Made by a program: the position numbers and the translations under genes. A stretch of DNA of 64,000 nt, from NCBI GenBank assembly GCA_021234155.1, contig JAJEKV010000003.1, positions 21,188,386-21,252,385 of the forward strand, given 5' to 3'. The stretch's first letter is position 1, and each line of letters opens with the position of its first letter. This document shows, piece by piece, positions 1 to 62,596 of the stretch. Below the pieces are notes generated by a model. The model was not told the DNA's origin and did no database searches. It saw nothing but the letters and a program-made list of their open reading frames with translations. The stretch comes from Isoetes taiwanensis (Eukaryota; Streptophyta; Lycopodiopsida; Isoetales; Isoetaceae).

Positions 1-1459
1 AACCCACAAACACCCAATGGTTTTATGGAATGGTTTTCTAGTCATAACCAAGAAAAAAACCATGTAGTTTTTTAATTTTGGGTGCCTTGTGAAGACAACA
101 GCAAGAAACAACAGAAAAGGCCCCTTAAAGTCGTACAAAAACCGCACCCATAGAGAAGGCTTGAGGAGTCAGATGCGCCTACTATCTACGAAAACTTCCA
201 GACTCAATGGTTCTTTACAAGGGGTACTTCTGGAAAGTACAGCACCCTGACTTTCCTACATGTCTGTCGGAGCCCTGGAACCAAAAGGTACGATGACAGG
301 GAATTTGTCTGCATGGGCACCATCCAGGCCGTCAGTGAGGTAGCTGGGGAGTCTGGTCAGGGAGGGAGACTGTCTTTTCAGACATCCCAAGGCTTTATTC
401 ATGTTGATGAATCCTACCTTAGAGTTGTGAAAGTAAATCCACATCCTCTTTATAAGTATGTTTCTCACTACCTGAACAAGAAGTCTATGTGTGCCATCAT
501 TAACTACGTTCGAAGCACAACGAGCGAGGACTTCCCCTACAGCGAGTCAGAACTAGGGAAGAGGATAACCAGAGAGCCAGAGTGGTGCATCATCACCATC
601 TGGGAGTCCATCAGAGTCCGAAGAAAGGCCACCGTCACCACCACCAAAGCGGCAAAGGCAAACCGTTGCCGCTAAAGAGCCTAAAAAAAAGCAAACGACT
701 TTGATTGCAAAAGAAGATGCTCCTGAGGAACCTAAGAAGAAGAAGGAGAAGGGCAAAGCACCTGGTGTTGCTATCAAAGAAAAAAAAGTTGATAAAACAT
801 CTGAGAAAATGGAGGAGATTAACCTGCACAAGTTTGTGCAAGGTGTCATTTATTTGCCAGTCACTTGTATGAAGCTTCCACCGAAAAATGAAGCTGGTGA
901 AAGGCCACTTCAGATTCGCAAAATTTACGCCGATCACTTGAGGAACCTGAAAGACAGAATAAGGAGCAATCCAAATGCTCATGTGGCCCCAATAGTTGTC
1001 CTTGTTGATAGGGAGCAGTGCAAAACCCCCCAGGACTATGACAGAGAAAACGCAGACACCTACACTCACTACGTCTTGGGAGGCAATCACAGCTTCAAGG
1101 CAAGAAGGCAACTTTATAAAGAGAAGAAGAACCCGAGGTACCTCTCTATCCTCTGCGCTGTCTACTGTGGTCTTACCGATGAAGAAGCGAAAATCGTTGC
1201 CAACACCCACAATGCTGACAACGAATATAAACTAAAGATGAGCTTCGTCGACAAGATCCGGTTCATGCACAGGGAGTACATAATTTTCAAGGAAAAGTAT
1301 GGTGAGGACCTGAAGAAGCCAGCGTTTTCCTTGGAGCTTAAGGAGGCGTGTGCCATTGAATGCTGCCTAAAATATGACGAGGCCAATAAAAGGCAGTCTC
1401 TCATTGGCCACGATAACTGGTTCCAATTAGCTTTTAGAGATGGCAAGGTAAGCACAAAA

Positions 1460-1475
1460 TGTATTCCAGAATAAC
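1460..1475. repeat. Same palindrome in upstream intron
   Basis: TGTATTCCAGAATAAC lies inside the 63-bp intron 1448-1510 and differs from the array consensus at the last positions and the centre. Confidence 0.9.
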
Positions 1476-1805
1476 AAATCAACTATCTCACGTGAAATCT
1501 TTTTGAATAGATTTGGGAACTCCAGGACGAGATATTTTCAATGTTCGAACGAGGGGAGTTAAAGAGCAAGGGCAAGGAGACAGCCAAGAAAAAATCGTCT
1601 GACGTGCCCAAAAAAGAAATGACCATTACCGTCTGGCGAGAAATGCAGGGCTTCTCCGACACAGAGATTCTGGAGCGGCTTCTCCAAAAAGTTGTTGATA
1701 AGGAGTTTAGCCTAGAAGAAATGTCAAAGGAATTGCACAAGTAAGATCTCTGCCATAAACTTTACTCTTTAGACGTTAGAGTCCCAAAAACATCGGGGTA
1801 GATAG

Positions 1806-2085
1806 TGTATTCCAGAATACACATACCTTTCTTCACATGGGCACTGTGTATTCCGGAATACACAATGCTTTTCTAGAGACAAGCAATGTGTATTCCGGAA
1901 TACACATTGCCCATGTAAAGGAAGGCATGTGTATTCTAAAATACACATGTCCTCTTCTAAAAAAGTATTGTGTATTCCAGAATACACATTGCTTCCTTCA
2001 GAGAAGCAAAATGTATTCCGGAATACACAATGCATTTTGTTTCGAGGTAGCATTACCAGTTAACCAGTTTGTATTCCAGAATACA
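1806..2085. repeat. Array of seven 16-bp palindromes in methyltransferase intron, 41-bp period
   Basis: Copies of TGTATTCCGGAATACA (or centre CAG/TAA variants) start at 1806, 1847, 1889, 1930, 1971, 2012 and 2070. The first six are spaced 41, 42, 41, 41 and 41 bp. Spacers of about 25 bp differ, though some are partly complementary to each other. All lie inside the intron 1741-2167. Confidence 0.95.
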
Positions 2086-2822
2086 TTTAGCTTGACTTTT
2101 ATTTGTTTTTCTTCTACTTTGCCTTGTTTCTTACTTTTTAACTCAGTGTTTCCTTAACGTCTTGCAGCCACAAGAACGTCATAACATGTCAAACATGTTT
2201 GATGGAGCAGCTAAACGTAGAGACATGGGAAAGGTGCAAGGAACTCTACCCAATAGCCACTTCTGACGAGCGCATTGTGCAATATGCACCAAATTTTGAG
2301 GGCTGGGTAAGTACTCTCAACATTCCTCGTCTTTGCACACACGATCTCCTTACAGTTGTTGTTATGTTTTTCCTCGGAGCAAAATGAAAAACAAAGACCT
2401 TCCCGAGGGCTTTATGCATTTGGTTAGAACAGCACGGGAAGAGAGGTCGTTAGCTGAAAGAAGAACTGTTGAGCCAGAACCATCCGACTACGAGAGATTT
2501 TGCATGTTTGATCAAAACTATTCAATCATTCATGGTGATTGCACGAACCTTGTCGGAACGGTTAAGCCACAGGACTTCACTTTGGTTATTGCTGATCTTC
2601 CCTACGGGTTTAAGCTTAAAGACAGCAGATACGACGACCAGCCCTTTAAATTTTCAGAGTTTAATGCTTTTATTGATGGAATCAAGCAGATCACAACGAC
2701 TAAACATTGGCGTTTAGTTACTTTCCATTCGAGCATGCAGTCTGGCTTGGTAGAATCAGCTTTCAAAAACCACTTTGGTTCTCCAGTTCAGGCAGGATAT
2801 GAAAACCTTGTCTGGTAAGTCT

Positions 2823-2877
2823 TATTCCAGAATACAGTTACTTTTCTCTTTGATTACGTAGTGTATTCCGGAATAGT
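2823..2877. repeat. Two further palindrome copies in downstream intron
   Basis: TATTCCAGAATACA at 2823-2836 and TGTATTCCGGAATAGT at 2862-2877 lie in the intron 2815-2944. The equivalent points of the two copies are again 41 bp apart. Confidence 0.9.
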
Positions 2878-3199
2878 ATTTCCTGTTTCTGGTTTTCGAA
2901 GTGTTTTCTTGTTTTTTCTAACATCACTTTAAATGTTTCACTAGGTACAAAACGAACATCAACTACCATGGTGGAGGACCAAGGTTGCTTAGCAAGGTAG
3001 AGTACCTTCATGTAGCTTATTGGAGTTTTGATGGGAAGAGGACCATGGAACACTTCCACATTGCCGTCTGTTAAAACTTTTCAAACGTCCTTGAGTTTCC
3101 AAAGATCTTTACGAAAATTGGGACCCAACCGCACAAAAGCCCGGATTGTGAATCACTACGAAACCACAAAAGCTCATCAACCATCTCCGGACATGTTCG

Positions 3200-4781: not shown

Positions 4782-4969
4782 TGTTCTTGGAGACCAAGAG
4801 CAAAGCACCGACCATGTTCCCAAGTAGTACTAACTTGATAGGATCCTCAAGCCTCGAAAAAGTGGGAAAAATTTTTCTCACCTTTGTAGTTATGCTAAGC
4901 TAGTAACAATTAAGTGAATTGGAATTTAACAAGATTAAAAAGAACGAGCCAAAATTTTCCAGTGAGGTG

Positions 4970-5338
4970 GTCTCCGCATTTCGGCGCTCGTCGCCAAAAC
5001 TAACTTTTTGTTTTGAAGCGAGGCTAAGCTATGAGACATCGAGCCAAGAACACCAAAACATGATGAATTTGAGATAAATAATGTGGTAAGGCTAATTCTA
5101 AGGTAGGAATTAGTTAGAATAGCATGTTTTAATTACCTAAAACCCTAGAAATGTATGAGATCTCACATTTCGCTCTGGTCGTAAAACTAAACATTAGTAT
5201 TGGAACGAGGCGCAAGCCGTGAGACCAATAGGTAGAAAAAAGTCACGAAATAAGTATAAGTTTTAGATAAATTGGTGCCTTAGCATGTTAAACGCGAGCA
5301 ACTTGAGTTTTGACCTAAAATTCCCCAAGCTATAAATA
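4970..5338 (+). promoter_or_regulatory. Promoter-like module 1: two imperfect hairpins then TATA box
   Basis: Two imperfect inverted repeats (4970-5037 and 5159-5225) have arms of GTCTC...GAGAC type and share an AAAACTAA-like loop. They are followed by TATAAATA at 5331-5338. The same arrangement recurs at 6848-7303 in this element. Confidence 0.55.
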
Positions 5339-6391: not shown

Positions 6392-6847
6392 AGAAAGCGG
6401 ATAGGAAGGAGGTGGAGAGAAGAGCTGTTAAGGGAGATTAGACACTTCAACAAGCAGCTTCTGGTCTCCTAATCCCCGCGGCCCCCCGGCTTCGGTTGGT
6501 GCGTGAAGTTATGCGTGCCTATAGAACGTAACTTTAGAGTCACGCATTTAGGCGGCCGGCAATGCAAGAGGCGGTTGAGGCAAAGATAGTGCAACATTTT
6601 GAAGATTCAACAGCCTGCACTATCCACTTAAAAGCGGTAACCTTAACGCGACAAGACATGAGTCTTGCGACCCGCATTAAGGGGGAGAACGCCTTTAGAA
6701 ACTTTTTTGTTGTAAATAATTAAAAATTTTGTAATATAGAGCAATTTTGTGTACCTTGATGACATAAACTTGAGTAATTAGAGCAAATTAATAAGTTTTA
6801 GCTTTTATTTCAGTGAAATAGGACATTTGGGAGCCGAGAGACATGAT

Positions 6848-7419: not shown

Positions 7420-10400
7420 ATGGCAACTTCGATTTCGGAGATGGTGCAGGCAAATGGCCAGCTCATCTTCGAGGTCGACGTCGACCAAATCTTCCAGATT
7501 TTTAGGGAAGGAGGTAGACGTCCCAAGCAACCTTGCACGCGACCCGGCTTATAGTAGAGTCTTGATCGAAGTTCCAAGCTAGGGTAGAACCAGCAGCTAG
7601 TGCAACTCCCTCCTTGTATAGGATATTTTGTTCCTAGAGCGGTCCCCCGCAGCGACATTAGGCGATGTCCCGAACATCGCCAAATACCTCACAAACAAAG
7701 CACCGCACACCCGAGCCAATGGTCCTAATCCCAGCGGGACCAAGTACTTCTCTTTCAACACCGCCACGGCAATCTTTCTCACCCACCGCGTCGGAGAACA
7801 TTGTGGGGAAACCTCTATTCCCCATGGACGCGGATCCATTAGTCAGCAGTTAGTAACAACGGGCTCCACACAAGATGAACAGGAGCAGGAAGGGAAGGAA
7901 GAAGACTCGATGAACAGAACTGAGGAGGAGGAAGACGATGTTGAGCTCGACCTGCCAGAGGAGCAAACACAAGCAGAGCGGGAGTGGCAAGACTTCGAAG
8001 AAGCCGGCAGACTCTGGTGAGTCGCCACCACCCGGGTTAGGCATCACAAGCCCGGCTCCCATTATCGCCTAAGGTGAGGAGTTTCTACTCCGAGCGACAT
8101 TCAAAACCCCCGGGAGTGCGTGGAAAGGGAATACCGACCTGAAGAGTTGCTGCACCAACTCCGGCGAAACGTGACTTGGACGACTTCATCGTCCGAGGAG
8201 AGTCCGACTTCCCCCTCCAAGTAAGGGAAGCCGACACTACACGGGAGAGTTTACCTCAGGACATCCAAGCCTAAAAAGAAACATCGCAGATCATGGAGGC
8301 GCATAAGGCCGGAGAACAAGCTACCGACGGAGGAAGAGTTCCTTGCTCTCCAGAACAGATGGGGATCCGCGAGCGACCTCAAACATCCTAACGCAAGCTC
8401 GTCCCGCAAAGACCTCCCCCGATAGACAGCGACTCGACCTCGTGAGGGCTTCAAAGAACGATCAATGACTACAGGAGCTCACCACGGTGGAGGTTGATGA
8501 TTTGAAGCGCATTAATCGAAAGCTGGATACTCAGTAGCCGAGGACCCATCTCGCAACGGCATGTGTCATTACGCTTCATTACCCGCCATTGCCGATGGAT
8601 GGAAGAATAGCGCTATCCACCGCAAAGTTCACCCCCGAGGCGCAGGGAAGGAGTAGCGTTGCCGATTGCACTCGGGATTCGCCGCATGCACGGCTACCCC
8701 TTAACAATCGTAGTATGCAATCCTGGTGAAAAGAGCGGTAGCACTCGACGCCTTCGACTTCTCGCCATACCTTACGCGGCAAGACTGCCGCTGATGGCAG
8801 CGGCCTTACACCTCCCAACCGCGAGAATAGAAGATTTAGCAAGAGCATTACAGGGTGGATCTCCAGCCAATGTTCTAGGAACTTGGGCCATTCAAAGGGG
8901 GAACAGCCCAAGTGAAAAAGTTCTTGGAGGATAATCCATCTTACCCAAGATCAACGTAAGTGATTAGCAAAAGAGTTGCAAGTTCTTGTATTAGTGTAAT
9001 ATAAAATATAAATATAACATTCTCTTGCACTATAAATGTTTTGTTGATACATTTTGTGTCCCCTCAACCATGCCAACAAACATAAATAATGCAAGAAAGC
9101 AAGGAAAACTAACCATGTAGATATGAACCACTTGTGTATGCGCAGCTAGAGGCCCTGAGCGCCAGAGAGAGCGATTAACTTGGAACTTCTGAGGGAATGT
9201 AGAGCCCCGCCAGTGCCACGCCCGCAAGAAACCCGCTTGAAGAATTTGGACAAATGACCCTTAAGAAGAAATATCGCAAATGAGGACGGACCTCGAGCGG
9301 ATAAAGGCTTTGCTAGCCGCACGCTGTGAGCAGGTTCGGTGGTAACGCCAACCGCCGCAAGCATCAGCTCGAGAAACGGTAGAGACAAGAAGAGGAGCAA
9401 GAGAGGAAGGTCCCCCAGCTCGGACTCCTCCGACTCAAGCTTCGATTCAGACCGATTCCGAGGAAGAAGAAGAGCGTAACCAAGTCCGAAAGCGCATCGA
9501 AAGGCGAGGAACCACCCTGAGGGACGACATAAAGGGACACAAGAACCTCGACTACCGTAAGAAAGTAGACTTCTGATTGGGAAATGTTTGAAGGCCAGAA
9601 GCTCGAGCAATTCTCAAAGCGAGAACAGGTCGTGCATGGAAGCAGAGGCTTGGCTTGACGAGATGAGCTTAATACGGCAATGCCTATGGTATGAAGGATA
9701 AGGATAAAGGCGTGGTGGCAACAAATAACCCTGAAGGGAGCAAAGACGCATTTGGTGGAAGGGCTATGCCAAGGCTCATGGCTTAAGCGGGGATGCTTGT
9801 GTTCAAGAAGTTTGCTAAAGCCTTCAAAGCGCCATTACGCTCCAAGAGAGCACAAGTCCAAGATGATGCAAAGCAGCTTCACAGTTGCAAGCAAGGCAAC
9901 AAGTCGCATTTAAATACACGAGGAATTTATGAGGCTAAGGTCAGATAAATGCCAAAGTTAGGTGAGAAGCATGCAAAGGGAAAGCTACATTGAAGGTCCG
10001 AATGAGGAGATCCTTAAGTTTGTAAGGGCAATAAACCCTAGAACGGTATCGGAAGCGGAGTCCAAGGCAATAAGCTTGCAAGGGACAGGACCTCAGAATA
10101 GCGGGCAGAGGCAACAGTATTACCAAGATAAAGGCAAGGCAGCAGGCAGTTTTAGCCCGAAGGCCAAAATTTCAGACCAGCTAGAGCCCCATATAGTGGC
10201 AATCAAGGGAAACAAGCAGGAGAAGAAGCGTGTGTCCTTCAAAGACAAACAGAAGGGTCAAACTACTCCAAAGCAAAGTCGCGATCCTTTCTGCGGAGGC
10301 CATGCCCAAGGAAAAGAGACAGAGTGCATAGAAAAGCGGCTTTGCTTGTGTGTTTCCAGCCAGGCCATAGGACAAAGAACCGCCCATATGTCATGAGTGC

Positions 10401-10440: not shown

Positions 10441-10547
10441 GACGACGGACGGGCGAGGAGGCCCGCGACTACATTCAGGGTGAGTGTCATATCTTTGCCG
10501 CAATAGATACAGAGCAAGCAGAGAGCCAGTATAAAGTAATTTCCACA

Positions 10548-11186
10548 GTGGGAAAGGCCAAGGCCAAGTCATTTATAGTCCTAATAGATTCGGGAAGTAG
10601 CCATAACTTTGCATCTCCCAGAATGGTTCAAATGTTGAAGTTGAAACCATTAAAGTCAAAGCCAAGGCCCGTTGTCTTAGCAAGTGGAGCAGTAAGGCAG
10701 ACGGCAGGTAAAAGAATCAACTTTGACATCGACTTGCCGGGGATTAAGATCCAGATGGGGGCAGAGGTAATGGGCATTGGCAAGTACGACTTGATAATAG
10801 GTATGGAGTACCTTGGACCAGCAGGGGCCATTATTGATTGTGGAAAGCGGAAGGTGACCTTCCCAACACCCGACGGCAAGATCATTGAGATAACAGGTAA
10901 AGAAGTTGTCCCCATCATGCAGTGTATGTCTTCTAAACGGCTGTTCAAGTGCATCAAGAGTGAGCAGGTAGCATACATCTTCAAGCTTGAGATTAGTGAG
11001 CCGGAATTGGAAGGAAGCAAAGAAGACAAGATGCTCAGCAAGTTGCCGAGGCAAATAGCTAAGTTGATCACGGAGTTCCACGATCTCTTTCCAGATGAGA
11101 TCAAGCAGCTCCCTCCTTATAGGGGAGTCGAAAAAGCAGATAGCTTTTCGAACGGGAACAAAACCGACAAGCAAGGCTCCATATAG
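10548..11186 (+). CDS. Retropepsin-like aspartic protease domain of pol
   Basis: A 212-codon open frame. FIVLIDSGSSHNFASPRM near its start is the active-site region of plant Ty3 proteases (DSGS in place of DTGA/DSGA). YDLIIGMEYLG further on matches the conserved I-I-G-M-x-x-L of the retropepsin fold. The end (ELPDEIKQLPPYRG region) is the usual linker into reverse transcriptase, LP-P-RG. The downstream reverse transcriptase is in another frame after a break near 11150-11250. Part of the 3200-16358 element. Confidence 0.85.
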   Translation: MGKAKAKSFIVLIDSGSSHNFASPRMVQMLKLKPLKSKPRPVVLASGAVRQTAGKRINFDIDLPGIKIQMGAEVMGIGKYDLIIGMEYLGPAGAIIDCGKRKVTFPTPDGKIIEITGKEVVPIMQCMSSKRLFKCIKSEQVAYIFKLEISEPELEGSKEDKMLSKLPRQIAKLITEFHDLFPDEIKQLPPYRGVEKADSFSNGNKTDKQGSI

Positions 11187-11994
11187 AATGACAACGCAGA
11201 GTTGCCTGAGCTAAAGAAGCGATTAGGAGGAGCTTTCGACCTAGGTTTCATTAGACCTAGTGTCTCGCCGCTTGGGAGCCCATTCTTTTGTCAAGAAGAA
11301 GGATGGATCTTTGAGAATGTGCATAGACTATAGACAGTTGAATAAGCACACCATTAAGAACAAGTATGCGCTTCCAAGATCAGACGACTTGATGGATCAG
11401 CTTCAAGGAGCAAAGATCTTCTCCAAAATCGACTTAAGGTCAGGTTATCATCAGATACGGATAAAGGAGGAGGATATCCACAAGACCGCCTTCAGGACGC
11501 GGTATGGGCATTATGAGTTCACAGTGATGCCTTTCGGCTTATCAAATGCCCCCGCAACGTTCATGAGGCTCATGAACGATATCTTCAGGGAGTTCCTGGA
11601 CACCTTTGTGATTGTTTTCTTTGATGACATTTTGGTGTATAGCAGATCCCTTGAAGAGCACGTGCAACACTTGAGAAGGGTGCTAGAGAAGTTGAGGAGG
11701 CACCAGTTGTACGCCAAGTTGTCGAAGTGCCACTTCGCAACAGAGAAGGTGGAATACCTTGGTCATGTGATCTCGGCAGAAGGCATCTCGACGGACCCCG
11801 CCAAGATTGAAGCAGTGATTCAAGGTCGGCCAAGAAGAATGCACGAGGTCGAAGTTTTCTGGCCTAGCAGGGTACTACAGAAGTTCGTGAAGAACTTTAT
11901 TAAGATAGCAGCCCCGCTAATGCACTCCGACGAGGGGCGAGAAGGTGAAAGATTGGGTAGAGCATTGGCACAAGAAAGCCCAAAAGGGATTTGA
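11187..11994 (+). CDS. Reverse transcriptase domain of pol (frameshifted)
   Basis: Frame 11260-11994 contains the RT blocks in order: [47 protein letters not shown], and the catalytic FFDDILVYS. These are typical of Ty3/gypsy. The start of the domain ([20 protein letters not shown] and SPLGSPF) lies just upstream in another frame. The shift falls at a T-run near 11290. The C-terminal end loses similarity after [16 protein letters not shown]. Confidence 0.9.
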
Positions 11995-12420
11995 ATTGTT
12001 GAAGGAAGCTTTAACAACAGCCCCAGTCTTAACCCTGCCGGACCCGGAGAAAGATAAGCTTGTAGCAACGGATGCGAGTAAGATAGCTACAAAAGTGCAA
12101 AGGCTTATGCAAGAAGAGCGGTGGTAGCGTATGATTCCAGGAAGATGAACGACGCCGTGACGCCGCCACCCAACACACGCATCGTGAATTGCTTGCGCTT
12201 GTCGTATGCTAAGAATATGGAGGCACTACCTCTTGGGAAGGAAGTTCCAATTGGATACCGACCATCGAGCCTCCAATATGTATTCACGCGAACCACACCC
12301 TCAATCTGAGGCCGGAGATGGATGGAGTTCCTCGAGGAATACGACTTTGATATAGTCTACAAGCCGGGGAAACTCAATGTGGTAGCAGATGCTTTCAAGG
12401 CATCCCCGACAACTAGAGTG
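11945..12420 (+). pseudogene. RNase H region of pol, degenerate
   Basis: [20 protein letters not shown] and LTLPDPEKDKLVATDAS match the connection and start of the Ty3 RNase H domain (the catalytic D of TDAS is present). LEEYDFDIVYKPGKLNVVAD near 12328-12390 matches its end (PGKxNxVADALSR). The middle is broken by stops and shifts. Confidence 0.7.
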
Positions 12421-12639
12421 CATTGCAACGCAATTTCGGACGCTCTCCAAATGACTTTGGTAAGAGGATTGAAGAGTCCTTGCCAACGGATGTGGATTTC
12501 GTGGAAGTATGGGCAAGCCTCTCTAAGGAGGCTAGAACAGATAAAGAGCGGGAGGCCTTCAAGCATTATAAGAAGGAAGGCAACCTGTTATACCATAAGA
12601 ACAAGTTGTGCGTACCGAATCATCAGGTGTAAGGAAGTT

Positions 12640-13590
12640 GATCCTCCATGACACGCATTCAACACCCAATAGCTGGCCATGCGGATTCATGAAAACATAT
12701 TTCAAAGCGCAAAGCTATTATTGGCCAAATGAATGAAGAAGCAAATAGCTCGCTACATCAAGGAATGTCGGGCTAATGAAGACGGCGAAAGGCGAAATAG
12801 CCTTCGGAATTCCAGGGCATTAGAGCCATTAGCAGTGCCAAATGCTAAGTGGGAGGTAATCAGCATGGATTTCATCACAGGACTCCCAAGAACAGCGAGA
12901 GGCAAGGATGCCTTGATGGTAGTGGTCGACAAGTTGTCAAAGATGGCACATTTTGTGCCTTGCAGGACCACAGATACAGCTATGGATACAGCAAAGCTCT
13001 TCACCAAAGAGATCTTCAGGCTTCATGGCATGCCAAGGGAGATTATCTCCGACAGAGATCCGAAGTTCATGAGTGCCTTTTGGCAAGACCTCTTTGCGAC
13101 AATTCAGACCAAGCTATCCATGAGCACGGCGTATCATCCTCAGACGGATGGCCAGACGGAGCGGACCAACAGGATCTTAGAAGACATGCTACGAAACTAT
13201 GTCTGGAATAAGCAAAGTATGTGGGAAGAATTTATTCACTTGGTGGAGTTTGCATACAATAGCACCAAGCAGGAATCGTCCCAAATGTCGCCATTTATGA
13301 TCAATTATGGCTATCAGTGCCTAACTCCAGACACTTGGCACAAACCCCGTCAAAGTAGAAGTTTCGCAGCAGATGTTGGCCGATATGCAGCAGCTCGTGG
13401 AAGAGGTTCGAGGGTATCTGCTAGCAGCAAGAAGTCGACAAAAGAGCATCGCCGATAAGCATCGAACGGTAAGAGAGTTCAAAGTTGGAGATGATGTATG
13501 GCTCAAGATAAAGGTGAAGCGTAAGGCGGCTTCGGGGATTGGCAATTGCAAGAAGCTTGCTCCAAGGTGGGCTGGACCCTTCGAATAATC
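12640..13590 (+). CDS. Integrase domain of pol (frameshifted)
   Basis: The zinc-finger region is decayed: HDTHSTP and YYWPN are seen but the CxxC end has drifted (CRANEDGE). The catalytic core in 12733-13458 is well kept. WEVISMDFITGLPR carries the first Asp, REIISDRDPKFMSAFW the second, and AYHPQTDGQTERTNRILEDML the Glu, a complete D,D-E set. A frame change near 13330 precedes the C-terminal part (13373-13588), which reads through a GPF/WAGPFE-type end. Belongs to the chromovirus at 3200-16358. Confidence 0.85.
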
Positions 13591-19485: not shown

Positions 19486-21480
19486 TTATCTACCCTCATA
19501 CAATGATATAGTATGCAGGTTGCTCATGGCTTTGTCCATCTCCCTTTTTGGGATCTTGTGTGTCTTATCCTTTGCAATGTGACAAGTTGGATATGACCAT
19601 ACCACACACTCCACCAATTCCCTCCTTTGAGGATCATCATGATTTGCCCTCCATTTCTTCTCCCAGCAGTCGGTGTATTGCTCCTTCAAGTTGCCCTTCT
19701 TGTGTCTTCCAATGGGCTCCCAAAATTGAACTTGGAATCCAGGATGCAACTCCTCTCCATCAGCCATAGTGGTGGTTACATCAGAGAGTGCCACCCCTAA
19801 CCATATTGAACAATCCTCATCATCAGGCCTTACTAACACAAAGTATCCTTCCTTGATGTCCTCAAACGAATCCCACCAGGAAGATCAAACCACTTCGGCT
19901 TTGAGGCCTTACTTCCCACAAACCACTTGGAACCATTGTTAGGACCCAAGTGAACTTTCTTAGATGTGCTTGCTCCTTGAGAACTCTCCCATCTGAACTC
20001 TGGCAAGAACCCGTCTCTCAGCTCCCCCCCACATGGTTGTTCAGTTTCTAAGCAAGTCACAACTTTCTCCCAGTAATTGATTAGAGAGTCCATGCGATTT
20101 TTCTTAAGAGTGGAGGTGTGCTTTCCATTTCGAACATCATCCCAGTGCGTTATATAATCCTTGATGCCCTTCACTAGTTGGCTAGAGTCTTTAACAGGCT
20201 TCAAGGGAGGTAGTGGTTTTGGCTGCCCTTTAGGAATAAGAACTTCACCTGTAGCACCCCGTTGCCACAACTCGATTCCTTGTACAGGCATCCACAACTT
20301 GTCACCTGAGAAAGTTCCGAAGAATGCATCTATATCATCGTGCGTATGCCCAACCATCATGAACCCCACTTTCACAACTTTGAATACTCCCACTGCTATC
20401 AAGTATGACATTGCCCCAAACATCCATCTATTCTTGTTTTCTTTCCAGCAGTTGTCCAATTGAACACATAGCTCCTCTAACAGTTGTTTCTCAAGTAAGG
20501 GGAAATCATCCCAAGTCCTCCTTGATTCTTTCGACACCTTGGATGTGAGCTCTTTTATCTGCCTTTGGTAACAGAACGATTGATCATCCATCAAAGCCTC
20601 AAAAATGGGGGCTGATGGAGAATACCTCCTTCCTTCTATCGATCCTTTCTCTAGTGTTCTCAAACACTTGAAAATAGAGCTCACATGGAAGTTTGGATCA
20701 TCCCTCCATAGATCAAGCACAAAATGACCATAGGTTCAAGTTCCATGCCCATGTGTTAAGACACCTACCAGACTTACTTTCATCTGAAAAGCGTTTTGAC
20801 AACGCTTGGGCAAAGGATCTAGCTTTGGCAAGAAAGTCTTGTGTTGGTCCATCTTATCATGAATTATACACAAAAATCTGTCAGGCTGCATCTGGGAAAA
20901 TGTTCTCCACTGCTAATACAACTGTCTACATGATATTTGGTCCCTTTGGTGATTTGCAAATTGCTCCCTAATTGCCATTCTTTCTTTCTCTATTGCAGTT
21001 TGATGCAAGTGTATCCTTGAGTTGAATGCAAGTGTTGCACTTTGAGAATGGCATGTGTTGCAGGACACTCACGTCTGAGAAGTGAGTGCTCCATAACTTG
21101 CTGAAATGTGATTGAGAAAGAGGCCGATCTCCAGTAGTTTCTAGGATGGACTTGACCTCTTTAAGGCACTCTTTTTGGATGTAATGTTGTGGCAACACCC
21201 TTTGGACCACTCGCACACCGTGCTCGTTCACCTTCGACTTTGTGGGGCATAGATTGAGACATGTATCTCACAAAGCTCTCGAAGACTGCAATGGCCCTCA
21301 AAGTGTTTGCCCTAGGTTTCAAAGTCAGTGCATTGCCATGTTGGAACAACCTGTGCCCTTTTTTGACCTGCTCCCAATATCTATAAAACGAAGACTTGCT
21401 CATGCCAAGAATCCATCTCAATGCTCTCATACATACCTTCAGGCACTTCTAATTGGGCCTTCTCTCATAATACTTGCAGT
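19486..21480 (-). pseudogene. DUF7869-like protein gene, copy 1 (frameshifted)
   Basis: The main frame 19833-20720 is preceded by frames 20968-21231 and 21161-21430 and followed by 19486-19839. It carries MSKSSFYRYWEQVKKG, ending in a zinc-like KCNTC. CIIHDKMDQHKTFLP follows, then LCVQLDNCWKENKNRWMFGA, then FMMVGHTHDDIDAFFGTFSG. Together, HDKMD, QLDN and GHTHxDxD look like the spaced acidic residues of an RNase H-like fold, as in DUF7869 proteins of plants and animals. This family has no settled function; a transposase origin is inference. Frames change near 20720-20970 and 21200. The homologue at 56530-59273 has the same order of parts. Confidence 0.65.
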
Positions 21481-36637: not shown

Positions 36638-36775
36638 TTCACACCGTGGCGACGGTGCGAAATAGACCTTTCCACATAATGTGGAACAGTCATTTTCGCA
36701 CCGTGGCCACGGTGCGAATATTTGTTAGTTGTAAGCACGGACAACACGGTCTTCGCACCGTGGCCACGGTGCAAG
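36638..36775. repeat. Palindrome array (family 2), three near-perfect copies, 57-bp period
   Basis: Copies start at 36638, 36695 and 36752, exactly 57 bp apart. The middle copy is a perfect 24-bp palindrome built on CACCGTGGCCACGGTG flanked by TTCG and CGAA. It lies just beyond the 3' end of the minus-strand gene 36876-38470. Confidence 0.95.
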
Positions 36776-38503: not shown

Positions 38504-38726
38504 AATATATACGCACCGTGTACGGGCTTGTGGCGAAACAAATGTAAACCCCAAAGACAAGAATAAGGTATTCGCACCGTGGCCACGGTGCGATATTTTG
38601 CCGAAAAGAAGGCCAAATTTATGTTAACTGCAAAACATACTACACCGCGGGCCCACGGTCGCGAAACTACACAACACGACTACTACACGAACTCCACATA
38701 TTTCGCGACCGTAATGTACGGTGCTA
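38504..38726 (-). promoter_or_regulatory. TATA-like site and palindrome array (family 2) upstream of the minus-strand gene
   Basis: Copies start near 38510, 38571, 38641 and 38702 (steps about 60-70). The one at 38571 is closest to consensus. TATATAT at 38504-38510 lies between the array and the gene. Confidence 0.65.
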
Positions 38727-56529: not shown

Positions 56530-59273
56530 AGCCTTCTTCCTGACATCCTGAGGTATTGTAATTCTCGCATTTCTAGCTGGAATAGTGTTTGGAGTCCATG
56601 AGTACAAAACACTTTCATAGTCTAGCCAAAGATCAGGATCACTTTCGGATTTCTCCTCCATCTCTTTGTCCAACAATCGAGTACCTTTCTTTATCCGACA
56701 CGTTGGTCAAGCGATGCTTTGGACACCACCATTCCACCCGCACATGGTTGAAGTTAATATTACCTTCTTCTTTGCAAATATCAGAGATAGTGAACCCCAA
56801 CCACTTTGGATATGTATCTAAATCTGGCTGGCTTTACTACCACAAATTGGTGGCATTCGGTCGAGTGGAAGGTTCATAAGCATCCATGCCTAGAAACTTT
56901 GGCCTATTGTTCTTAGGACCAACATAGTGTTTGTCGAGGAAGGAGGAGGAGCATATTGCTTGCGAATGCTACTTACGGTGTCATCAAAATCCTCGGCACC
57001 GCTAAGGTCTTCCACCTAGTTTTAGGCAACCACCCTTCTTTCAATTCATCGAGGATGTGTCTATCTCCCCAACGGGTTAATCACCTTCTTTCAAGTAAGC
57101 CACCAAGGCGCGGTTGGTGTCATCACGGATTGGTTTGCCAATGCTTTATATAGTCTTGGATTCCTTCCTTAGTCAATCCCAATTGCTTCACTTCTTTAGT
57201 AGGTTTTAAAGCTTTTGGTTGACCTAGAGGTATCATAGGCTTGCCATTCTCATCTCTACGCCATATTTCCTCCCCTCCTCTCCACTCATCCTCTGAAGGT
57301 CTCATCTTCCATTGGAAGATTGGAATCCCATCTCTCACCCAAAAAGTGAACTGCAGAGGCCTGGAATGACCTTCAAGATCCAATGTATAACCATCCACAA
57401 AGCTCTTCCAATCGGGCACTTCTTCTATGAGAGAAGCTATAGGGTTTGGAGTAGTGCATTCATGCAAGATTTCCATTAGCCTAGGAAAGTTGGTCACTGT
57501 TTGTTGCTTCAGTATACAACTATATTTGCCAAATAATGCATCCACATCCTCATGGGTATGCCCGGGCATAAGAAACCCTAAATTAACTCTTTCAAATATC
57601 CCCACAGCTATTAAGTAGGATAGGAAAGAAAACATCCACCTGTTCTTATTTTGGCCAGCACAATTATCAAGTTGCAAGAGAAACCTTTTGGGTAGATCTT
57701 GAGGTTTAGCACATGAAGTTGAAGCTCCAACATGTTCATTAGACCCATGCTTCCTAAACCTTGCCTTGCTGAACTTTTCAATATTGTTAGGGTTTCCATC
57801 TAACAATGCTCTATGTAGTGCCTGGCTAGCTGTAAGGTCCTGGAGGTGACCATTGTATCCATTTTCATAGTTTCTCAAACACCTCATGATACTCCCAATA
57901 TGAAAATCTGGACCATCACTCCACAACTCCAAACTAAAATGGCCATAGTAGGTTTGATTACGCCCATGCAAGTTTGCCCCTGATCATTGAGATCTGTAAA
58001 GGGTATGATCTTCCACATGACTTTGGTATGTACTTGAATTGTGGAAGACAAATCTTTTGCTGGTCCATCTTGTCATGTATAATACATAAATAGTTATTGG
58101 GTTCCAATGCAGATAAAGTCCTCCACATCCAATAACATGATCTACATGATAGTTGGTCAGTCATATGGTCCTTCATATGCTCCCTTATCCTAGCCCTTTG
58201 ACTAGGTTGCACAGTCTTATCAAGAGTCTCCTTCAACTTAGCACATAAATTGCACTTTGCAAAGTTGTTTGAAGTTGCTATGGTGACATGATTGAAATGC
58301 TTCTTCCATAACCTACTAAAGCTAGGTTGGGATATTGGAAGAATTCCCAATTCTCGAAGTAGGGAATTCACTTCTTCCAAAATACTCTTTTGAGTACAAT
58401 GTGATGGCAACCTTTTCTCAACAACTGCTCTTCCCTTTTCATCCCTTCTACTTTTGTGTAGCATAGACTCTGCATTGAAATCAATATATTTTTCAAATAT
58501 CTCCCTGGCGACCAAGGTCCTATTTGTTGGTCTCAACAAACCATTATTTCCATGTAAAGCAATCCTGTTCCCCTCGCTTTTTTTTTTTGCCAATTATGCC
58601 ATGAAGAAGTTGGAATTGCATGGATACTCTGCCATGCTTTTGCACATATCCATTTGCCTAGCAAAGGGTATCTTTTTCTGTTTGGGTTTCTTTCATCTTG
58701 AAGTGCATGCTCGAAGATTGTGTACATGTAGGTCCTCCTCTCATCAACAGTGTACTCTTGAAAAGTGGCTCTTGCTTCCACCAATTGTTCTATTGTAAAG
58801 AATTGCATACAAGCACTCCAACAACAATCTGAGCCCCTAACCTTCACCATTGTCTCACGTTTGGTGTCACTATTCAACTTGGCTCTTTTGCTAGGATAAT
58901 GTCTGGCAACTGATACTTCTCCCCTTTTGCCTAGGTTTAGAGTTCCAACCGCCAATGGATCAATATCAAGACAATCATTGTCCCCAACAACCTCGGGCTC
59001 GGAAAAATATAATCCTCCACAAATTGAACACTACTTATAGGCCATGCCATGATGCAAGGAACCTCCAATTGCTTGACACAACCAAAACATTCCTTGTCAC
59101 TCAAACCTTTACCTTTCGGTTGTCTTCCAACATCGAAATTGCAATACCAATATTGTCTTCCCTAGCCTTTCATCATTAACAGGCTTGACCGGGATCACGC
59201 TAGCACAATGACTCCTTGGCCTACTATTTCCTTGTTGCACATGTGCATGATTCTCACCTTCTTGTTCCTCCAT
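56530..59273 (-). pseudogene. DUF7869-like protein gene, copy 2 (frameshifted, nearly complete)
   Basis: Start codon 59271-59273 (MEEQEGENHAHVQQGNSRPR). Long frames are 58533-58955, 57958-58593 and 57123-57971, then decayed sense to 56530. Features: TSSWHNWQKKK, KCNLCAKL (zinc-like CxxC), CIIHDKMDQQKICLPQF, LLQLDNCAGQNKNRWMFSFL and FLMPGHTHEDVDALFGKYSC. These are the DUF7869 marks; spaced acidic residues suggest an RNase H-like fold. The break at 58580 is in a run of ten T, so it may be a sequencing error. It shares order and motifs with copy 1 (19486-21480) but is clearly diverged. No surrounding terminal repeats tie it to a transposon. Confidence 0.7.
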
Positions 59274-59718
59274 TGCACCCTACTATAGAGGACTAATTGT
59301 TTTTCTTCAACATTCTTGCTAGGAGTTGATTTTTCATTGATATTGCTCTTTTCAATATGTTGCACACCATCTTGAGTTGGAGAGGCACCATTGACCTAGG
59401 CAAATTGCACCCTTTTTAGTTAATGAGTAGGAAAAAATTATTACACCATAAGATAAAAAAAGTACGTACATTTATGGAATATGTAGAGGTAAATCAAATT
59501 TTTTTAAAAGCAAGAAATTCCTTGGAAATAGGTTTAATATAATAATAACAATGGGCGTAAACGAAATCATTTAAAACAAGAATTTTCGTGGCAACAACAA
59601 GGAAATGATATTATCCTAATTTCAATTATCGAAAATTTGGATATATGATTACGAAAAGACATATAGCTGATGGACGTGAGAATTTATTATCCATAATAAT
59701 ATACCCCAGATGATATAG

Positions 59719-59801
59719 CTGGCGGGAATTTCGTACGCCTGGCGTGTTATTTGAGGCAATAAATTATTCACGCTAATTTCTAATTAACCCTATATAAATC
59801 C
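59719..59801 (+). promoter_or_regulatory. Promoter module 1: GGCGGGAA, ACGCCTGGCGT palindrome, TATA box
   Basis: GGCGGGAAT at 59721, palindrome GTACGCCTGGCGTGT at 59733-59747, AATTATTCACGCTAA, then CTATATAAATCC at about 59792. The same string of elements at the same spacing recurs at 60892-60965. Confidence 0.75.
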
Positions 59802-59854
59802 GGTTCACGCTCTCAAGACCTCCATTACGTCCAAATTTTTTTTTTCGCCCCGCC

Positions 59855-60286
59855 ATGAAGCGTTCAGCCTCGTATTTCGAACTTCATGAAGAACCCGAGG
59901 TCTCGTCAAAGAGACGTCGGGTTGAAGCACCCCCTCTATTCCCCCCCCCCCATAGATTTTCTTGCCCAATTCTCCTCTGATTCCTCCTCTGATGAAGAGG
60001 AGGAAGAGGAGGAATTGGACATGGAAGAGGAGGAGTTGAGCTCCTCTGATGAAGAGGAGGAAGAGGAGGAAGAGGAGGAGATGTTCTCTCAAGAGCACAC
60101 GACCGCTCTGCTTCAGGGTTGGCTTGACCCTGAAACAGAGAATGAAATCTCTGAAGAGGAGGAGGAGGCGGAGGAAGAAGATGAGGAGGAAGGTCGACAA
60201 TTCGACCAGTTTTTAGAATGGTTGAGAGATGAGCTAGGTTTGCATGTCTGCTTTTATTTTTTTTTTTCACCTTTCTTTCTTTTCTA
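59855..60286 (+). CDS. Acidic nuclear-type protein
   Basis: ATG 59855, about 55 bp after the TATA box, gives MKRSASYFELHEEPEVSSKR and RRVEAPPLFPPPP, with a nuclear-signal-like KRRR. After a one-base shift in a run of C (59941-59951) it continues IDFLAQFSSDSSSDEEEEEE. Two SSSDEEEE blocks and more Glu/Asp runs follow, ending QFDQFLEWLRDEL. Frame 59886-60287 is open to TAA, or is spliced at GTTTGC near 60239. Strongly acidic tracts with a basic nuclear signal are common in histone chaperones, but no fold is recognised and function is not assigned. Confidence 0.6.
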
Positions 60287-60289
60287 ACA

Positions 60290-60880
60290 CCTTTCTTTCT
60301 TCTTTGTTGGGGCGTGGAAGATCAATGATGCATCCCGGGTTTTTTTTTTTTTTTGGTTGCTTACAGAAGCTTTGGACACGCCTCCGGGCATTTTTTTTCC
60401 TGTAATTTTGTGAAAAGCCTTCGGGCATCTGTACATTCTCCTATGAATGAAATCAAACAGTTTTCGTCATAAAATTTTCTTCAAACAGTGTTCTTTGAAC
60501 AGTTTTTCTGTACATAAAATTATTTGAATTAAATCCAACTGTTTTCTCCAATTATTTTGTCTCCAAGCTGTTATCTCTAAAATTTTGTATCTGCAAATTT
60601 TGTCTCAACAAAGTCTCGGGAACACTATAAATCAACCACATGAGAAATCTCTGATTCATCACAGTAACCATAGAAAATTAACCTATACGACCTAAAACAA
60701 TTCCCCAACCTTACAAGTCATTTTTTAGCCTTGATAATTTTGCCTTAAAAATCATTTTTAATTTAGCCTATATAAAATTTCTAAATTCTATTTTTTCGAA
60801 TGCAATAAATGGAATAAAATGCCGTGAGAATTTATTGCATGAAATGCAATATTCTTCATATTTACCATATACATGTCATG
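60290..60880. other. AT-rich spacer
   Basis: T-runs, and a CTTACAG acceptor-like site at about 60361 followed by a short open piece that could be a last exon of the acidic gene. Otherwise nothing supported. Confidence 0.4.
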
Positions 60881-60891
60881 TCTGGCGGGAA

Positions 60892-60965
60892 GACCGTACG
60901 CCAGGCGTGTTAATTCAAGCAATCAATTATTCACGCTAACTTATTTCTAATTATGCCTATATAAA
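60892..60965 (+). promoter_or_regulatory. Promoter module 2, copy of module 1
   Basis: GGCGGGAAG at 60884-60892, palindrome GTACGCCAGGCGTGT at 60896-60910, AATTATTCACGCTAA, and CTATATAAATCC at about 60956. Palindrome and TATA box are about 57 bp apart, as in module 1. Confidence 0.75.
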
Positions 60966-61316
60966 TCCATTTCACGCTCTCAAAGTTCCTACATTTTCTT
61001 CCTTCCTTCATACGATTTGCGGTTCGCCTGCTTTGTTTTGGATCCGCCCTCACGAAATCTTCGTGAGCGATTTATATTCAAGCAATGTTAGATGTTTGGT
61101 TTGGCAATTCCTAACTTACTAAAAGACTCGCCTTTTGTTCAGTAGCATCTGTGCGAGAGAGGACATCGGAGGCTCGAATTAAAACCAAAAGGCGAGGACT
61201 AAGGTGCGAATTGAAAAGCCTCGAATTAAAACCACAAGCATAGTCCCTCTGTTCTTGAGTCCTTCCGACCTCGAGAACTCAAGGTTAGTTTTCATTTAGT
61301 TTTAAGTTTCATCTCA

Positions 61317-61409
61317 ATGGCAGGTTTAATCCAAGAAGACAAGCTTTTGCATTTGCTCGAGGAAGAGGAAGCAGATGATGTTTATGAAAACCAGAATAGT
61401 TTTTTATAA
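61317..61409 (+). CDS. Small acidic ORF of 30 codons after promoter module 2
   Basis: ATG 61317 to TAA 61407-61409 reads MAGLIQEDKLLHLLEEEEAD and then DVYENQNSFL. It may equally be an exon that starts after the AG at 61322, since AACTCAAGGTTAGTTTTC at about 61278 looks like a splice donor. The product is unknown. It is the only open frame of note behind promoter module 2. Confidence 0.35.
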   Translation: MAGLIQEDKLLHLLEEEEADDVYENQNSFL

Positions 61410-61568
61410 ACCTCATCTGCTTCTTTTTGTTTCGAGTAAATTCTTGAGTTTCTCTTCCTGAATTAATCATGCTATTGCATGCAAGTTTCTATTATGAATA
61501 AGTGTAGTAGAAAGCATTAGAAAAATCTGAAAGATAATATTTGAAACACGCGAAAGATAATATTTGAA

Positions 61569-61924
61569 ACACGCTAAGCGTGTTTTATGCTAACCTTAGC
61601 CTTCAACACGAATACGGCTCGTGCATTCAGATTGAGAGGGAGAAAAAAAACATGCGGATAGATAAGTAAATAGATAAGGGCGGGCAATTATTTTGCGAAA
61701 TAATTGCCGGCCTTTATCTATTTACTTATCTATCTCTGATGTTTTTTTTTCTCCCTCTCTGCTGAATGCACGCCGAGCGTGTATAGTTTTTCCTATATAG
61801 CAGTTTACACGCTGAGCGTGCAAACAATTTTATCCCTAGTTTCAACTTTTACGCTAAACACGCCGGGCGTGTCTCTTAGTTTCTAAGTTTATATAAATAA
61901 ATAAATATAACACGCCAGGCGTGA
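61569..61924. repeat. Palindrome array (family 3, ACACGCCNGGCGTGT)
   Basis: Copies at 61569-61583, 61768-61782, 61807-61821, 61858-61872 and 61910-61924, the last four 39, 51 and 52 bp apart, with a decayed one at about 61606. They run up to and past the TATA-like ATATAAATAAATAAATA at about 61890, 33 bp before the next ATG. Confidence 0.9.
61621..61771. mobile_element. 151-bp foldback (MITE-like) inside the array
   Basis: Arms 61621-61695 and 61698-61771 are complementary over about 73 bp, with few mismatches and a 2-bp loop. Outer ends GTGCATTCAG and CTGAATGCAC. It separates the first palindrome copies from the rest. Confidence 0.9.
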
Positions 61925-61956
61925 ATACTGATACTCCGCTCACTTCCTATTGATAG

Positions 61957-62596
61957 ATGCCAAGTTACATTAATCACCCGGTTGGTGACGAAGATGCATT
62001 GGAATTATATTTGGGCCAGCAATCACTGACCCGGCTCGGTTCGGCTCCAATCTCCAGTCCGGTTGAACCGGCACCCGAAAGCAAAGTCCGGTGGAGCACC
62101 GATCTTGCAACCCCGGAGTACTTGGATCAAGTAATGATGATGGCAGCAGAGAGCGAGGGCAATGATAGATCGGGCTCGGGGCCCTTGCAATCGCACGGAG
62201 GCTGGCCCTCTTATCTAATCACTTCAAGAATGCAGTACATGCAATTGATCGAGAGTGAATCTCACATCCGTCAGCTCGAGATTCAAAATGAGGAGCTGCG
62301 GTTCTTAGTGGTTAGCCTCTATGCCCGGATGCCCCAACACGAACCACTACCACAAAGCGGTATAACGATGCAATGGAGATGGCTCAACCAATGGAACCAC
62401 TACTGCAGGCGCTTATCACGATGCATTGGAGGTTCAACCAATGGAGCAGGAGGAGGAGCAAGAGGTGGAGGTGGAGCAGGCGGGGGAGGTGGAGCTAGAG
62501 CCTGGTGTTTTTGCTGGGGTTTTACCTGATCAGTTCACTATGCCCAGCTATAGAAATGGGAGTATCGATAGCCCGGCTACTCGATGGTGGGCTTGA
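61957..62596 (+). CDS. Unknown protein with coiled coil and acidic tail (one frameshift)
   Basis: ATG 61957, 33 bp after the last palindrome. MPSYINHPVGDEDALELYLG, then a Pro/Ser-rich stretch, then SHIRQLEIQNEELRFLVVSL, a short coiled coil. The open frame runs to 62529, but its Gly-rich end looks out of frame. After a shift near 62370 the sense is YHDALEVQPMEQEEEQEVEV, then DQFTMPSYRNGSIDSPATRW with TGA at 62594-62596. That end is acidic and echoes the MPSY start, so it is the likelier one. No domain is recognised. Confidence 0.55.

Follow-up and report, generated by a model that had tools for sequence, protein, structure and literature searches.

The DNA analysed here (the window) is a stretch of 64,000 nucleotides from Isoetes taiwanensis (contig JAJEKV010000003.1, positions 21,188,386 to 21,252,385), and close to its start lies a gene whose introns hold copies of a 16-bp palindrome, TGTATTCCGGAATACA. 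The gene model consists of five exons on the plus strand, which encode a ParB-like region together with a motif of methyltransferases, and is referred to below as the ParB-methyltransferase gene. The exon with the ParB-like region (569..1447) is an open frame matched by relatives, with an uncertain 5′ limit and a change of frame near 570. Intron 1 (1448..1510, GTAAGC...TAG) is absent from relatives such as P0003 and P0004, which read through, and is followed by exon 2 (1511..1740) and intron 2 (1741..2167), the position of which is common to the family and which contains the main array of seven palindromes. Exon 3 (2168..2310, the 3′ end being 2306 or 2310) precedes exon 4 (2397..2814, 5′ end uncertain), which carries the methyltransferase motif DLPYGF and is matched by relatives with the N6_N4_Mtase domain (PF01555); intron 4 (2815..2944) and exon 5 (2945..3074, stop codon 3072-3074) complete the model. 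In an alignment made by eye this stop falls inside the methyltransferase domain of relatives such as P0006, and the window protein terminates before the conserved FAGTGT part of the enzyme.

With up to three mismatches allowed, the palindrome was found at ten places in the window (1460, 1806, 1847, 1889, 1930, 1971, 2012, 2070, 2821 and 2862, no strand being assigned), the mean being 0.21 and the maximum 3 in 100 shuffles. All ten sites are confined to introns of the gene model and the window holds no others. Three are exact (1847, 1889 and 2012), three have one mismatch and a CCAG centre (1806, 1971 and 2070), one has two mismatches (2862) and three have three (1460, 1930 and 2821). An earlier note on this DNA had described six palindromes at spacings of 41, 42, 41, 41 and 41 bp in an intron, and the mismatch scan confirmed them at 1806..2027 in intron 2, where a seventh lies 58 bp after the sixth (2070..2085). 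Additional to those described earlier are a copy in intron 1 (1460..1475), a location for which nine such sites were counted across 30 family copies, and a pair 41 bp apart in intron 4 (2821..2877).

A module of palindrome, spacer and palindrome, copied in both direct and inverted orientation, makes up the intron 2 array. An inverted repeat at 1805..1946 (70-bp arms 1805-1874 and 1877-1946, 89% complementary, 2 bp between) represents two modules in opposite orientation, the segment 1802-1872 is duplicated directly at 1967-2037 with 83% identity, and spacer 1 aligns with the reverse complement of spacer 3 with a score of 21 across 25 bases. This composition explains the strong predicted RNA fold of intron 2 (-167.5 kcal/mol, z-score -16, with 0 of 100 shuffles equally low), while intron 4 gave a z-score of -2.3 with 3 of 200 shuffles equally low. 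The intron 4 spacer is alike in its length of 25 bp and in its cores, and its resemblance to the intron 2 spacers is not clear (best z-score 2.8). An array of the clustered regularly interspaced short palindromic repeat (CRISPR) type was considered and rejected, since the spacers are interrelated through direct and inverted copying.

A genome-wide scan for the 16-mer and its periodicity, as proposed in the earlier note, gave 3392 exact occurrences in the 1.66 Gb host genome and none for a reversed control, with spacings mostly of 41-42 bp in the 30 gene copies described here. All 150 scored candidates in a search of the host genome with the ParB-like exon were matches with 80-100% identity, and as these were drawn from 3496 candidates at first look the family comprises at least 150 matches. 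The 30 copies, viewed with 1.5 kb on each side, are the best matches with the window included, and thus those most closely related to the window copy and not a random sample. Palindromes are located upstream of the gene and/or in intron 2 in all 30, with at least two upstream sites in 26 and at least two intron 2 sites in 26, and the 639-bp part of the ParB exon is free of sites in every copy. Upstream spacings were 42 bp (45 times), 41 bp (6) and 73 bp (10), those in intron 2 were 41 bp (63 times), 42 bp (49) and 58 bp (6), and the copy number of the array varies between family copies. When loci were approached from the palindrome side (4 of the 3392 sites), three of the four encoded the family and the fourth lay 2.7 kb from a member. 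Arrays independent of any element were encountered neither in the 30 copies, nor in these four loci, nor among 37 sites in the metagenomic relatives described below. The palindrome arrays belong to a high-copy transposon family and are not a random satellite. The earlier idea that the array belongs to the methyltransferase gene and may be bound by its protein is partly supported: it gains strength from 30 of 30 copies, from palindromes that stay conserved between drifting spacers and from relatives with their own palindrome arrays beside the same gene, but its scope widens from a single gene to a transposon family with arrays also upstream. The widespread satellite unrelated to the gene, which had been put forward as the refuting case, is likewise borne out only in being widespread, since the arrays sit with the element.

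Eight of the 30 copies share the exact intron 2 layout of the window, and their pairwise divergence is 2.1% in palindromes and 8.4% in spacers, with 8.1% at third codon positions and 1.4% at first and second positions; these figures serve as guides, the copies being related and the sites chosen by likeness. Variable columns amount to 8 of 96 in the palindromes versus 33 of 126 in the spacers (Fisher p 0.0008). Among 372 sites, positions 3-7 and 10-14 (TATTC and GAATA) are 96.8-100% constant per position and the outer bases 1, 2, 15 and 16 are looser (79, 79, 91 and 87%), so that mismatches concentrate at the palindrome centre and ends. Little weight can consequently be given to the previously suggested likeness to bacterial parS in the TGT...ACA ends, since the outer bases vary more than the arms and the palindrome of the relatives is without such ends. 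The centre is CCGG in 160 of the sites, CCAG in 89 and CTGG in 82, with others making up the remainder, so that CCGG, named as a possible methylation site in the earlier note, is not a required one. Near-equal counts of CCAG and CTGG would be expected as CpG decay products if the central CpG were methylated and tolerated either way. The palindromes are owned by the element and conserved, and they are most simply regarded as protein sites.

Relatives of the encoded protein were sought in successive searches, which yielded one match among 5683 candidates, four among 7002 and finally 28 among 7998 scored (E-value 0.01, scoring limited to candidates sharing most words). Sixteen of the 28 are named, all of them proteins of the ferns Adiantum capillus-veneris and A. 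nelumboides; among these P0029 is doubtful, its window match lying only in a retrotransposon open reading frame (ORF). The 12 others are unnamed ENA or JGI proteins. The N6_N4_Mtase domain scored above cut-off in five of the ten relatives scanned (P0006, P0007, P0021, P0026 and P0028). Eight of the 12 unnamed proteins terminate precisely at the intron 2 donor, that is at the 3′ end of exon 2, which indicates that the array-holding intron is old. A viral origin was rejected, no relatives being found in IMG/VR with three protein queries; 59 IMG/VR stretches contain the 16-mer, and in none does it recur at a second, separate place. No bacterial relatives were found with query A4.

When prokaryote genomes were scanned with an alignment of the family, nine loci were detected (L060-L068), all in the metagenome-assembled genome (MAG) CAKZGI01, labelled uncultured Trichormus sp. 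Trichormus azollae is a symbiont of the fern Azolla, and these contigs are probably DNA of the Azolla host, since they hold an intron-bearing gene and long terminal repeat (LTR) retrotransposon ORFs. A bacterial origin of the nine loci, obtained with query A6, was rejected on the same grounds despite the cyanobacterial bin, and the contigs resembling fern host DNA are a probable contamination of this bin worth flagging. The Azolla-type relatives carry another palindrome, GTCGATGC-N3-GCATCGAC, with 2 to 15 sites in six of the nine loci; the remaining three are L063, with only about 280 bp of upstream sequence, L066, without its 5′ part, and L068, with about 585 bp upstream and no site. Exact copies number 37 in the 5.9 Mb MAG, on eight contigs, with none for the reversed control, and 37 of 37 reside on contigs of the element, six of these being the loci mentioned and two (C299 and C326) holding the DUF7869 gene region and an array. 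The 43 spacings below 130 bp, among them those of L095 and L096, lie at 31 bp (2), 40-43 bp (13), 50-54 bp (24), 62-63 bp (2), 72 bp and 84 bp, leaving 32-39, 44-49 and 55-61 bp empty. For 41 Azolla-type spacings the Rayleigh R is 0.81 near 10.4 bp and 0.79-0.81 over 10-11 bp, so that no single period stands out, and these values are to be read with the non-independence of tandem copies in mind. Adjacent palindromes in L061 alternate in orientation like the modules of the window.

The Azolla-type element has a second gene. L060 and L067 each have an ORF on the minus strand, 873 and 888 amino acids long, respectively, with a DUF7869 domain (E-values 3.7e-51 and 1.8e-52), and the array is located between the divergent DUF7869 and ParB-methyltransferase genes. 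The same DUF7869 region was recognized by blastn in L061 and L062, and L064 and L065 start within the array. L066 is bounded by terminal inverted repeats about 6 kb apart (506-539 and 6516-6549; 34 bp, 94% identity); only short matches were seen in L060 and L067. The element in L060 appears to be inserted in a Ty3/gypsy ORF, parts of which flank it at 1-720 and 8320-8772. From this gene order a second array and a DUF7869 gene were predicted to the left of the window, and an array and a gene fragment were then found in L097, a 10-kb stretch ending just inside the window. Its array (4871-5103, spacings 42, 42, 49, 42 and 42 bp) is situated some 4.4 kb before the window begins and has nine sites with up to three mismatches, the chance mean being 0.04. 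Beyond it a minus-strand fragment matches Azolla DUF7869 proteins (E-values 1.4e-8 and 3.7e-8), giving the window copy, beside which alone a DUF7869 gene was sought, the Azolla-type gene order. The fragment adjoins a retrotransposon of copia type, as judged from its ORFs by eye. The DUF7869 protein is probably the transposase.

Other parts of the window contain DUF7869 genes as well. One lies at 57123-59030 on the minus strand, and 5′ of it a different palindrome, ACACGCCRGGCGTGT, is present at 59733, 60896, 61569, 61768, 61807, 61858 and 61910, the last spacings being 39, 51 and 52 bp; a plus-strand ORF without a Pfam match (61957-62529) follows these sites, so that 57123-62529 presents a third motif with a layout similar to that of the array element. 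A DUF7869 ORF at 19833-21005, also on the minus strand, is related to the Azolla element protein, and no similar palindrome pair was detected 5′ of it. A 24-bp palindrome, TTCGCACCGTGGCCACGGTGCGAA, occurs three times at 57-bp spacing (36638-36775) and again 1.8 kb further on at 38571; no DUF7869 ORF was seen nearby. Ty3/gypsy-type ORFs, recognized by eye as protease, reverse transcriptase and integrase, occupy 10443-13458, several kilobases downstream of the ParB-methyltransferase gene.

The reading we hold to be rather probable is that the palindromes are self-recognition sites of a two-gene transposon, read by a protein which the element itself encodes, most likely the ParB-methyltransferase. 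The element would be a DNA transposon composed of a DUF7869 gene and a gene for a ParB-like N6/N4 DNA methyltransferase, with the palindromes as cis-acting recognition sites. A dimeric element protein, presumably the ParB-methyltransferase, would load onto them along a single face of the helix, both in the upstream region and within the introns of the gene, and through this loading the element's own copies would be recognized. The outcome may be control of its own expression and/or methyl marking, by which copies would stay active or transposition would be guided. Binding by a dimer is suggested by the two-fold symmetry of the sites and by spacings near whole helical turns; as to the binder, its dimer state and the effect of binding, we infer them, with the ParB-methyltransferase as the first candidate and the DUF7869 protein as the second. 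One may further speculate, more tentatively, that the transposon is self-addressing: the ParB-type protein would load on the helically phased palindromes ahead of and inside its own gene and spread, the fused methyltransferase would write N6-methyladenine or N4-methylcytosine on the element's own copies as a self mark shielding them from silencing, and address and reader would be rewritten together as lineages part.

Several observations weigh against this interpretation. The window protein matched DUF6551 alone in Pfam, below cut-off (E-values 0.009-0.012), with no methyltransferase match, and neither a helix-turn-helix nor another DNA-reading family was found in it in Pfam and PHROGs scans. 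A GGNHS-type motif and DUF6551 are presumably akin to ParB. PHROGs returned weak matches only (best E-value 0.002), two out of three bearing the name DNA methyltransferase, a PDB sequence search only two chance-level matches (E-values 0.26 and 0.4), and the structure model of query A4 was poor (predicted local distance difference test score 48.8) and was not used. The window copy of the gene is probably decayed, given the stop inside the methyltransferase domain and the change of frame near 570. The fragment in L097 corresponds to residues 143-251 of the Azolla protein, the N-terminal part, and L097 showed no DUF7869 domain. All detected Azolla-type sites lie upstream of the ParB exon with none in introns, hence arrays in introns are no shared feature, and the upstream sequence of L068 has no site. 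Spacings of 58 and 73 bp deviate from whole helical turns. The criterion of up to three mismatches biases toward conserved palindromes, and with the most divergent copy removed the contrast in variable columns shrinks to 3 of 96 versus 14 of 126 (Fisher p 0.039). Finally, the protein that binds could just as well be the transposase.

This last point leads to the strongest alternative, in which the DUF7869 protein binds the arrays as transposase sites and the ParB-methyltransferase reads something else. Subterminal repeats serve as transposase sites in CACTA elements, the upstream array adjoins the DUF7869 gene, and the window gene at 57123-59030 has its own, different palindromes with no adjacent ParB-methyltransferase gene (tblastn, 29 family proteins). 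Arrays within the introns of the ParB-methyltransferase gene in the host genome are, on the other hand, poorly accommodated, as is the placing of the Azolla-type array between the two genes, at a distance of kilobases from the terminal repeats seen in L066, and we regard this alternative as on the whole unlikely. A location upstream of genes and in introns would also suit sites for a host transcription factor, in which case the GGAATA half-site or the TTCNNGAA core would recruit a regulator of the host to drive the element; these sequences may resemble heat-shock (TTCnnGAA) and GARP/KANADI-type half-sites. That a related element and another element in the window use unrelated palindromes, and that conservation extends past TTCNNGAA to the flanking TA on each side, makes a host factor distinctly improbable.

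A function at the RNA level, with intron hairpins feeding small RNAs or affecting splicing, could be invoked from the fold of intron 2, which no shuffle matched. Chains of palindromes fold on themselves anyway, though, the fold of intron 4 reaches a z-score of only -2.3, and the spacers that form much of the stem drift like third codon positions, for which reasons we consider such a function less plausible still than a host factor. The inverted and direct duplicates are plain and the copy number of the array is variable, as would be expected of a neutral satellite that multiplied within the element through tandem and inverted duplications. Yet palindrome divergence is one quarter of spacer divergence, the exon examined has no sites, and relatives show unrelated palindromes at similar spacing; neutrality is thus very hard to credit. 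The reading of the palindromes as sites for a protein of the element's own is preferred over these alternatives.

Genes for ParB-like proteins with N4C/N6A methyltransferases are already known from algal transposons, i.e. Sola1-1_Ec32 of Ectocarpus and green and red algal cases, and the authors have suggested self-binding of these proteins (PMC12477816, as far as its accessible part goes). The present cases differ in belonging to fern-type land plants, in the DUF7869 partner gene and in the palindrome arrays, there being no mention of an array in that part of the algal report. The closest precedent for function is the anti-silencing VANC proteins of VANDAL transposons in Arabidopsis. According to the available portion of PMC5735166, VANC21 binds to arrays of its motif within the introns of transposons, and the systems are alike in short, tandemly duplicated noncoding motif arrays, a reader that is an element protein and a family-specific motif. 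The present element likewise has its motif arrays in noncoding stretches, a likeness in working and not in membership; unlike the palindromes, the VANC21 motif YAGTATTAY is non-palindromic, and VANC is not described there as ParB-like or as a methyltransferase. For geometry the closest precedent is the centromere of the F plasmid (sopC), where ParB has ten 16-bp inverted repeats within twelve 43-bp tandem repeats (PMC6238139, in the part available), although that system serves bacterial plasmid partition and the domain here is only ParB-like, with DUF6551 below cut-off. VirB of Shigella, a ParB-related protein, acts on parS-like palindromes (virS) and counters silencing; it is a bacterial regulator for which the excerpted text describes neither a methyltransferase nor a transposon (PMC10770331). 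A literature search covering few subscription journals gave no paper on the 16-mer or on DUF7869, and combining ParB with fern, alga, transposon or methyltransferase gave no land-plant case in titles and the starts of abstracts. Within the scope of this search the arrays and the lineage-specific motif appear to be new, and the ParB-methyltransferase transposon genes as such are known from algae.

The algal work had suggested that such proteins act on their own element through binding and modification. For this idea land plants now offer a candidate for the physical target, accompanied by evidence of conservation and by lineage-specific motifs. The idea becomes testable, as two related proteins and two unrelated palindromes are at hand and the pairing of protein and palindrome is predicted. 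If true, a palindrome-reading system of prokaryote type would join the known devices by which transposons recognize themselves and counteract silencing.
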